64,000 bases of DNA, from the NCBI RefSeq assembly GCF_902500225.1, contig NZ_LR722652.1, positions 248,001-312,000 on the forward strand, written 5' to 3'. The notes under the pieces are model-generated. The model was not told where the DNA came from and searched no databases. It saw nothing but the letters and a program-made list of their open reading frames with translations. Both the position numbers and the translations under genes were made by a program. Source of the stretch: Buttiauxella massiliensis (GTDB lineage: Bacteria > Pseudomonadota > Gammaproteobacteria > Enterobacterales > Enterobacteriaceae). This document shows, in pieces, positions 11,587 through 46,831 of the stretch (positions within the stretch are counted from its first letter, which is position 1; each line of letters opens with the position of its first letter).

Positions 11587-11656
11587 GCTGACTATAGAGT
11601 GGAATGAATAAATTTTCAACAAGTGATCCGGTGGGGAACCGTATCGGACAGAAACG

Positions 11657-11681
11657 AAAAAACCCGCCGAAGCGGGTTTTT
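11657..11681 (-). terminator. Terminator of the cold-shock gene
   Basis: AAACCCGC / GCGGGTTT stem with a short loop, flanked by A and T runs, 31 bp past the csp stop. On the minus strand the stem is followed by six Ts. The A/T symmetry means it could also act on the other strand. Confidence 0.85.
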
Positions 11682-11711
11682 AAATTCTTTAGAGCTTAGT
11701 TAACGCTAACC

Positions 11712-11924
11712 TTACAGGCTAGTTACGTTACCAGCTGCTGGGCCTTTAGCGCCGTTCTCGATGGTGAAGGAAACTTTCTGGCCTTCATCAAGAGATTTGT
11801 AACCGTCGTTCTGGATTGCAGAGAAGTGAACGAACAGGTCTTTTGAACCGTCGTCTGGAGTGATGAAGCCGAAACCTTTATCAGCGTTGAACCATTTTAC
11901 CAGACCAGTCATTTTGTTAGACAT
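11712..11924 (-). CDS. cspA: CspA-family cold-shock protein
   Basis: A 70-residue single cold-shock domain, nearly identical to E. coli CspA. The RNA-binding motifs are KGFGFI and FVHF. It is an RNA chaperone that melts secondary structure at low temperature. The long leader with an exact cold box (12064-12074) shows that it is one of the cold-induced members and not a constitutive CspC/CspE. A leucine replaces the usual valine before FVHF. Orthology with cspA itself, as opposed to a cspA-like paralogue, cannot be settled here. Confidence 0.93.
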
Positions 11925-12082
11925 GTGTATTACCTTTTGAATTGAGTGTGCCTTACGGCGATTTGGTATGCTTTACAGATTTTATGAAGCGGTAGAGGAG
12001 CACACGACAAAGGGTATCCAGGGATGACTCTTGAAGGACTGCTTTACTAGGTTGCTTTAAAGGTCTGTACGTCAAACCGATG
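11925..12082 (-). promoter_or_regulatory. Cold-shock 5' leader with cold box
   Basis: On the minus strand TGACGTACAGA (12074-12064) equals the E. coli cspA cold box. From there to the ATG the sequence follows the cspA leader closely, including the TCTGTAAAGCA segment and the AAGG ribosome site before the start. By analogy transcription begins near 12082, giving a leader of about 158 nt that refolds with temperature to control stability and translation. Confidence 0.88.
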
Positions 12083-45365: not shown

Positions 45366-45701
45366 ATGACACTCCCTCATTGCCCTAAATGCAATTCCGA
45401 GTACACCTACGAAGACAACGGTATGTTTATCTGCCCAGAATGTGCACATGAATGGAATGATGCCGAACCTGCTGCAGACAACGATCAACTGGTTGTTAAA
45501 GATGCCAACGGCAACCTGTTAGTTGACGGTGATAACGTCACTGTAATTAAAGATCTGAAGGTTAAAGGCAGCTCTTCAATGTTGAAGATTGGTACTAAAG
45601 TTAAAGGTATCCGTCTGGTTGAAGGCGACCATAACATCGATTGTAAAATTGATGGTTTTGGGCAAATGAAGTTGAAGTCTGAGTTTGTTAAGAAGAACTA
45701 G
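45366..45701 (+). CDS. yjdM: YjdM (PhnA) zinc-ribbon protein
   Basis: A 111-residue protein nearly identical to E. coli YjdM. Two CxxC pairs (Cys6/9 and Cys23/26) make an N-terminal zinc ribbon, followed by a KOW-like beta domain. Despite the old name PhnA it is not needed for phosphonate use, and its function is unsettled. I chose the ATG at 45366 by homology; ATGs at 45360 and 45300 are in frame upstream. AGGAT precedes it. Confidence 0.95.
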
Positions 45702-45736
45702 GTTCGTTCGCCATTGCTGTAATTGCTATGCAAGTA

Positions 45737-46302
45737 CGGTGATTTTCCGTTCACCCGAAAGTTATTCGATCCCGCATGGATTAGTGAACGGTGAACGTAT
45801 CAAGGGGTTAACGCCAACCCCTTGATAATCCTGGCGCCCGGTCTTTAAATTGCCGCTTCGCGGTAAACCCCAGCTTATCCCCAACGTTCAGGGTCGTTCG
45901 CGATTCGTTCCCGACGATCGCTCTCTTTCGCTGCTCCCGGCAGCTCAACCCTGACTTATGGGTAACGCTGGGGCAATTTATACCGGGACTCAAGGTCAAA
46001 ACCTAAACCAGCCTGGCTTTTGACTTTAGGTTTTGACGTTGACCTTTATCCCCGGCTTCAATCGCGCCGTTTTTCGCCCTTCAGTCGTGGTCACGTGGTC
46101 TGGAACCACGTGAGTGAGCGATCGCCGGGAGCGAGTCGCGAACGACCGCGAATGTTGGGTGAAAAACGGTGTTTACCGCGCAGCGGCGATTGACTTGCCG
46201 GGCGCCAGGATTGCCAAGGAGAGGGCGTTCTCTCCTTGGCACGTTCACCGTTCACAGATTCATGTGGGATCGCATAACGTACAGGTGAACGGAAACTCAC
46301 CG
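45737..46302. repeat. 566-bp near-palindromic element with covarying hairpins
   Basis: The outer 62 bp (45737-45798) and the reverse complement of 46241-46302 match at 53 of 62 bases. Homology continues inward to about 45945 / 46097. Inside each end sits an 11-bp perfect hairpin: 45799-45826 with loop AACGCC, and 46213-46240 with loop GGCGTT. The two stems differ in sequence yet both pair perfectly. Centre: 13-bp stem GTCAAAACCTAAA (45995-46007) / TTTAGGTTTTGAC (46025-46037). Another hairpin, CACGTGGT / ACCACGTG, is at 46092-46112. No protein is convincing. It resembles a dispersed intergenic repeat; I know no name for it. Confidence 0.85.
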
Positions 46303-46393
46303 AACCAGGCATAAGATACCCCTTCCCCCGCCTGGCTTGCCCAAGCTCCCCCAACTAAACTTATTCTGCACTCCGCATTATGAGGAACGAACA

Positions 46394-46831
46394 ATGTCTA
46401 TCGGACCCTACATCTTTTTTGACGGTACCTGCGAAGAAGCAATAGCGTTCTACAAACAAGCCGTCGGTGCTGAGTTACTGTTTAAAATGACTTTTGGTGA
46501 AATGCCAAAAGACGAGAATCAGTCGGCTGAAGGATGCAGCAGCGGTTTTAATTGGCCGGACGATAAAATCATGCATGCCAATGTGCGTATTGGCGGTGGC
46601 GAAGTGATGATGAGCGACGGCAATATGTGTGCCGATAAAGTGAAACACACAGGCTATGCGCTGAGCCTAACCACCACAGATGTCGCAGAAGGCCAACGCT
46701 GGTTTGATAATCTCAGTGCAGGTGGCGATGTCACCATGCCGTGGGGGGAAACGTTCTGGGCAAAAGGATTCGGCATGCTTACCGATAAATACGGTATTCC
46801 GTGGATGGTGAATGTCGAAAAACCAATGTAA
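46394..46831 (+). CDS. yjdN: YjdN (PhnB) VOC-fold protein
   Basis: A 145-residue vicinal-oxygen-chelate protein matching E. coli YjdN (FGEMPKDENQSAEGC, HANVRIGGGEVMMSD, WGETFWAKGFGMLTDKYGIPWMVN). The fold is that of glyoxalase/3-demethylubiquinone methyltransferase-like proteins; the substrate is unknown and it is not required for phosphonate use. GAGGAA precedes the ATG at 46394. The upstream gap is filled by the palindromic element rather than the short spacer seen in E. coli. Confidence 0.93.
   Translation: MSIGPYIFFDGTCEEAIAFYKQAVGAELLFKMTFGEMPKDENQSAEGCSSGFNWPDDKIMHANVRIGGGEVMMSDGNMCADKVKHTGYALSLTTTDVAEGQRWFDNLSAGGDVTMPWGETFWAKGFGMLTDKYGIPWMVNVEKPM

Follow-up and report, generated by a model that had tools for sequence, protein, structure and literature searches.

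The gap between the genes yjdM and yjdN of Buttiauxella massiliensis is filled by a large palindrome without recognisable genes, which raises two questions: how did such an element arrive there, and what keeps its inner hairpins paired while their sequences change? Here, we analysed a window of 64,000 nt (contig NZ_LR722652.1 of assembly GCF_902500225.1, positions 248,001 to 312,000), to which all coordinates without a locus name refer, together with related copies in public genomes.

A giant imperfect hairpin in the window

A preliminary description of the locus, made from the sequence alone, had placed a palindromic element at 45737..46302, with arms matching at about 85% over the outer 62 bp and homologous for about 200 bp. 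Both figures were reproduced: 45737-45798 and the reverse complement of 46241-46302 share 53 of 62 positions, and arms of 230 nt share 171 (74%). Repeat finding yielded arms of 229 nt each, 75% complementary and 114 nt apart, and a sequence search of the element against itself inverted gave an E-value of 2.9e-81. The proposed extent holds a real inverted repeat but is too short, as pairing in the fold runs further out, to 45727-46313. Two 11-bp hairpins with different stems, both perfect, lie where they had been seen and are termed HP1 in the following (left, ATCAAGGGGTT AACGCC AACCCCTTGAT; right, GCCAAGGAGAG GGCGTT CTCTCCTTGGC). The absence of a protein or transposase was borne out as well, since the longest ORF wholly inside 45737-46302 (ORFs of at least 40 aa counted) comprises 63 aa (45808-45999, minus strand). 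The features are collected in Table 1.

Table 1 Features of the palindromic element and its neighbours (positions in the window).
Feature	Position	Strand	Basis
yjdM, upstream neighbour, outside the element	45366..45701	+	Pfam PF03831 YjdM, E 1.5e-33
Whole pairing element (giant imperfect hairpin)	45727..46313		Fold of 45722-46318 pairs 45727 with 46313; family copies
Left arm	45734..45962	+	Inverted repeat I1, 75% complementary
Left outer palindrome TTCCGTTCACC...GGTGAACGT	45745..45798	+	Sequence; motif also starts family arms
Left HP1 hairpin, stem ATCAAGGGGTT, loop AACGCC	45799..45826	+	Perfect 11-bp stem; family covariation
Central hairpin, between the arms	45990..46042		Inverted repeat I3, 18 nt, 94% complementary
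Right arm	46077..46305	-	Inverted repeat I1
Right HP1 hairpin, stem GCCAAGGAGAG, loop GGCGTT	46213..46240	-	Perfect 11-bp stem; faces left HP1 in the fold
Right outer palindrome	46241..46294	-	Reverse complement of the left outer palindrome, with changes
yjdN, downstream neighbour, outside the element	46394..46831	+	Pfam PF00903 and PF06983; order as in E. coli K-12 yjdM-yjdN

Folded as a single strand, 45722-46318 is predicted to form one giant hairpin, with the two HP1 facing each other across the stem to give a four-way junction. The fold reaches -360.9 kcal/mol as RNA (z -26.7) and -204.1 kcal/mol as DNA (z -22.7), and in neither case was any of 100 shuffles as stable. At gathering score, Rfam 15 gave no match to the element; the only match in the window is an ordinary one elsewhere, a full-length cspA thermoregulator (RF01766, 328.8 bits) at 11654-12081 on the minus strand.

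A mobile family with Tn5-like ends

The element proved to be a dispersed repeat. In a search of 60 genomes at 1e-5, 13 matched: related copies were found in 11 of the 12 Buttiauxella genomes, the source genome included (G005 being the sole one of the genus without a copy at this threshold), and weakly in two of 24 genomes from other genera of the family, while none of 24 genomes from other families of the order gave a match. A scan of genome contigs with a 20-mer of the core returned 39 stretches, all from Buttiauxella; the same 20-mer was absent from viral contigs, and in searches of E. coli genomes, plasmids and phages the window element had no match. The source genome alone holds five more long copies and several short derivatives. 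Copies are mosaics in which arms and inner modules vary in combination, and short copies retain only the outer palindromes, with or without HP1. Two interiors (L034 and L159) carry an extra block with further hairpins of the GGTTATTCGGCACATCCCTGTGCCGAACC and TTCAAAAATGTTCCTGACATTTTT type inside one inner module.

Outside TTCCGTTCACC, many copies show CTGTCTCTTATACACA or CTGTCTCTTAGTCACA further out. Allowing at most one mismatch, CTGTCTCTTATACACA was found 40 times, spread over 10 of the 12 Buttiauxella genomes, and its reversed control not at all, with the reservation that L138, one of these places, breaks off in CACATC where its contig ends and may be adapter. The end consensus CTGTCTCTTATACACAACT (35 ends) agrees at 18 of 19 positions, and the consensus CTGTCTCTTAGTCACATCT (40 ends) at 17 of 19, with the Tn5 mosaic end as printed in the accessible part of PMC4248319; one single end among these 75 distinct ends is identical to it (19 of 19). 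The mobile unit thus defined ends 34-78 bp outside the TTCCGTTCAC motif, at 37, 51 or 65 bp in 48 of the 75. Among 23 distinct copies with two ends, which commonly bear one end of each consensus, lengths range from 170 to 731 bp; 15 measure 613-731 bp and five of these 637-642 bp. Tn5-like ends are not confined to the palindrome family: a 157-bp element with a different interior (L243 1501-1657, G112) bears them too, inserted into CTCTCCTTGGGGAGAG and flanked by a duplication of 8 bp.

Tn5 makes 9-bp target duplications. In the two-ended copies, 10 of 23 showed a 9-bp duplication matching at 8 of 9 positions or better with a shift of at most 2 (shuffled mean 1.14, maximum 6 in 5000), and five of 23 did so in strict register (shuffled mean 0.57, maximum 4). 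The expected 9-bp length was thus found, though some duplications measure 8 or 11 bp. Several of the best ones are near-palindromic because the target itself is a hairpin.

The nature of the target shows at the site of copy L159, whose flank we located in all 12 genus genomes. In nine of them the site is empty but still holds the hairpin, e.g. ATCCTCTCCCCCAGGGAGAGGAT in the source genome; in G008 it reads CTCCCCTCTCAGTCCG, element, CTCAGTCCGAGAGGGGAG, and in G010 and G011 it carries an older copy whose left end has decayed. More generally, a perfect flank stem of at least 6 bp surrounds 10 of 23 copies compared to 8.4% of 3248 control positions, and one of at least 7 bp eight of 23 compared to 2.1%. 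The loop of a terminator-like hairpin (CCCTCTCC..GGAGAGGG) houses many copies, and the genes on either side are mostly convergent: by a simple rule that needs an ORF on both sides, and which left two of the 23 sites unclassified, 14 of 21 sites are convergent, six codirectional and one divergent.

Taken together, the Tn5-like ends, the duplications and the insertion into a hairpin loop that is empty elsewhere point to a non-autonomous, MITE-like element of Tn5/IS50 type, and the family has the terminal inverted repeats and target duplications of MITEs and, in the window copy, no long ORF. Which enzyme might have moved it? The transposase domain PF02281 was found in none of the 12 genus genomes, in a search whose control genomes gave no match either. 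Over the order, nine of 295 genomes matched, six of them above the cut-off. One of these loci (L224) encodes a 464-aa homologue of the Tn5 transposase (E 4.8e-80 to 1mm8), flanked on both sides by Tn5-type ends 1.5 kb apart; IS elements with ends of the family's kind around such a homologue hence occur in the order. Used as query, the L224 protein matched five of 149 genomes of the family at 1e-10 and none of the 12 of the genus, a search without a positive control within the genus. DDE_Tnp_1 transposases were considered and rejected as the mover, for they occur in seven of the 12 genus genomes yet are absent from G008, which has the most end matches, and none of 17 DDE_Tnp_1 loci has Tn5-type ends at fewer than four mismatches. 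The family is therefore classed by its Tn5-type ends; no autonomous partner was found in the 12 genomes, so the mover would be absent from them or unrecognised there.

Against this background, the site between yjdM and yjdN can be read. Three of the 12 genus genomes hold a full element in this gap, which measures 693 bp in the source genome, 689 bp in G006 and 726 bp in G008, and the left arms of the three copies differ. G007 has a partial element near a contig edge; in seven genomes the gap is 113-288 bp long and contains other hairpin repeats, and in G001 a yjdM beside yjdN was looked for and not found. In at least two short gaps (L115 and L122) a CCTCTCC..GGAGAGG hairpin, the target type of the family, lies directly behind yjdM. 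In the window copy, the yjdM stop codon lies 44 bp outside TTCCG, closer than the unit end in most copies, and both Tn5-like ends and the terminal inverted repeats of the family are absent. The window copy is an old one whose outer transposon ends have decayed or been lost. Of the target duplication and empty site that the preliminary description had proposed to look for here, the second is reflected in a site polymorphic across the genus, but a clean duplication was not recovered, as the short gaps are occupied by different hairpin repeats and the element has lost its own ends.

Tn5-like ends, target duplications and terminator-hairpin targets explain the spread of the family, and we consider it probable that the window copy is an old member, with decayed ends, of a gene-less Buttiauxella element family that a Tn5/IS50-type transposase moved in trans into terminator-like hairpins. 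Judged by their sequence, the inverted ends CTGTCTCTTATACACAACT and CTGTCTCTTAGTCACATCT should be recognised by such a transposase, which would have acted in trans and left duplications of about 9 bp; it may since have been lost or be located elsewhere. Insertion into a terminator loop would be tolerated because the element's own pairing lengthens the host hairpin. The interior forms a single giant, imperfect hairpin, with a four-way junction predicted at the two HP1, and its inner pairing may be preserved jointly by selection acting on the folded strand and by the swapping of entire hairpins among copies. Several observations weigh against this account: 13 of the 23 two-ended copies are without a good duplication, the best duplications are partly near-palindromic and some are 8 or 11 bp long, searches of the 12 genus genomes revealed no Tn5-type transposase, and the window copy itself shows neither Tn5-like ends nor a clean duplication.

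Pairing of the HP1 hairpins and its possible causes

From the differing yet perfect HP1 stems of the two arms, it had been concluded that the stems keep their pairing through compensatory change and that the folded form is therefore selected. The first part extends to other copies of the family. For the covariation counts we used 25 distinct HP1 of one length class (alignment A2), truncated copies and other length classes having been excluded beforehand; alignment A1 with 32 hairpins was kept out of the pair counts because its loops differ in length. In A2, 95.0% of cells are paired compared to 34.7-52.7% when one side is slid, and nine of 12 pairs have changed on both sides. Double-changed cells number 63 against 19.6 after shuffling, a test inflated by the relatedness of the sequences, which the slid controls retain; the number of pair types did not exceed that of the shuffles (16 versus 15.7; 294 of 500). 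With copies dispersed over the genus and compensation present in them, neither a singleton without relatives nor uncompensated stems elsewhere speak against the claim. The second part is less secure: compensation is real and variation is lower at loop than at stem positions (0.45 versus 0.77 bits, 17 hairpins), but G-T mismatches do not outnumber A-C ones (4 versus 11 of 627 inner pair cells), so that the strand counted lacks the wobble signature of an RNA. This test, meant to tell RNA from DNA, is a weak one; it used 57 of 100 distinct 31-mers, the others having more than four mismatches or not being HP1. In addition, hairpins can be exchanged as blocks, since in a tandem array (L213 2102-4759, G022) one unit bears a wholly different HP1 while a 300-nt part of its interior is 96-97% identical to that of its neighbours. 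Selection at the DNA or RNA level, template switching and hairpin exchange each fit part of the pairing data.

Perfect hairpins can also arise by template switching at quasi-palindromes, with no need for selection. An account in which such switching, joined by gene conversion or recombination, keeps the hairpins perfect without any selection on the fold is possible, though we regard it as somewhat unlikely. It would accommodate the double changes with few intermediate pairs, the HP1 block replacement between otherwise near-identical tandem units and the mosaic arms at one orthologous site (yjdM-yjdN), but not the stronger conservation of loop than of stem positions. Conversion between arms is further disfavoured by the two HP1 of one element, which were alike (at least 10 of 11 positions) in none of 45 two-arm elements; random pairing gave a mean of 5.1 and was as low in 0.25% of pairings, a control that is not fully fair because HP1 types go with arm types.

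Alternatively, the covariation might reflect selection on a structured RNA, in which a read-through transcript with a four-way junction and conserved ACGCC-type loops would either influence the 3' ends of mRNAs or function as an RNA after processing, and the Tn5-like ends merely dispersed the element. We hold this to be unlikely. The strong covariation of HP1, the conserved loops, the very stable fold, the location between gene 3' ends and the quite different stems with which other genera keep the same plan all accord with it, but no Rfam match reached gathering score, G-T mismatches are not in excess of A-C with the strand counted, and HP1 occurs in both arms in opposite orientation, so that both strands fold.

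The junction could also be functional as DNA, if an extruded four-way junction served as a site for a junction or nucleoid protein, or protected a 600-bp palindrome from cutting or deletion. This is a doubtful proposition. In its favour, a four-way junction is predicted in 41 of 45 two-arm elements, the two HP1 are unequal in all 45, and the arms are only about 74% alike. However, these 45 copies (40 from Buttiauxella and five from other genera) were chosen for good HP1 in both arms, extrusion is a prediction, and in three of the four exceptions HP1 is unformed and the arms pair through, so that the two HP1 pair together; the fourth was below threshold.

Relatives beyond the genus and known systems

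One copy comes from Citrobacter freundii, where the record bears the label plasmid; it shows the complete two-arm layout on different stems and is predicted to fold in the same way. A search with this copy at 1e-5 gave matches in 25 of 149 Enterobacteriaceae genomes, with at most three candidates scored per genome. E. coli was reached only with a query from another genus (L055). Of 5426 E. coli genomes, 5375 contain relatives of the core, at 1-10 places each (median 3), for instance at yegH-asmA and lysO-aqpZ. The three E. coli copies inspected comprise one arm each, that of K-12 being further shortened, and in two Klebsiella copies the outer palindrome GCGCTCCC/GGGAGCGC replaces CGTTCACC/GGTGAACG. 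Head-to-tail arrays of the wider family occur in G022 (L213 2102-4759) and G109 (L214 1202-2902), spaced at 634-641 and 665-667 bp. At five loci of other genera no Rfam family reached gathering score. An Rfam search at a permissive threshold yielded two matches, which scored far below gathering and were taken as chance. Tn5-like ends (at most three mismatches) were present at one of 35 loci outside Buttiauxella, in G108, and absent from the other 34; the Tn5-type account therefore covers the spread within Buttiauxella and not the wider core. One may speculate, with little confidence, that the core is an ancient folding element of the Enterobacteriaceae in which a four-way junction (two necessarily different self-pairing hairpins on a giant stem) is conserved, carried on varied transposon ends that are Tn5-like in Buttiauxella, and acting as a DNA junction or as RNA at gene 3' ends, with its sequence free and its shape kept.

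How does the family compare to known systems? With Tn5/IS50 it shares ends matching the mosaic end at 17-18 of 19 positions and duplications of about 9 bp; it differs in having no transposase, a giant branched hairpin as interior and many copies in terminator-like loops. MITEs, as described in the accessible part of PMC10969869, are likewise short, gene-less and dispersed between genes, with inverted ends and target duplications; the present family is large (15 of 23 copies at 613-731 bp) and has nested hairpins and covarying stems. ERIC and YPAL are also palindromic, intergenic and dispersed in enterobacteria but, according to the available portion of PMC2759123, measure 127 and 168 bp and have TA duplications, in contrast to the CTGTCTC ends and duplications of about 9 bp in Buttiauxella; the YPAL (RU-2) sequence was compared by eye. 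Our literature search, which covered few subscription papers, returned no earlier description of the palindrome family, nor, including the accessible part of PMC10969869, a natural gene-less family with near-mosaic ends.

The E. coli RSA repeat is 152 bp long with six copies in K-12. In size it is similar to the K-12 relative at asmA-yegH, which measures about 155 bp, and in its low copy number to the median of three places per genome. REP/BIME repeats are intergenic and palindromic as well, and in E. coli K-12 they fill the same gaps (yjdM-yjdN and proX-ygaY), but they differ in sequence and unit size. In K-12, the yjdM-yjdN gap measures 657 bp and contains an array of REP-like units in place of the element (L112 2793-3390), and the proX-ygaY gap holds another (L183 3625-3730) where E. 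coli KE47 has a palindromic element (L126). REP-like arrays thus fill gaps that elsewhere hold the palindromic element, i.e. shared insertion hot spots.

Tn5 ends are standard laboratory tools, and a natural gene-less family with near-mosaic ends appears undescribed in the literature searched. Because genomes display its ends, its duplications, an empty site and the hairpin-loop target, whether a Tn5-type enzyme mobilises a natural substrate becomes directly testable, and the family interior provides a natural case for the old question of whether covariation in DNA palindromes stems from selection on the fold or from palindrome-perfecting mutation.

The laboratory use of these ends also suggests that they might be remnants of sequencing adapters, a very improbable reading that is consistent with four loci (two each) running into adapter-like CTCCGAGCCCACGAG at contig ends in G034 (124 matches) and G176 (42), and with the adapter-compatible L138 of the genus, but is already contradicted by the Buttiauxella ends, which lie inside contigs, one of 5,141,063 bp, run on into element sequence (AACTCACCC or ATCTTTGAGG), exist in diverged versions and stand on both sides of the element with duplications. 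Reads of Tn5-made libraries might also get trimmed at the natural ends, breaking assemblies there. The public assemblies G034 and G176 apparently retain library adapter at contig ends, a trap for searches for Tn5-like ends.
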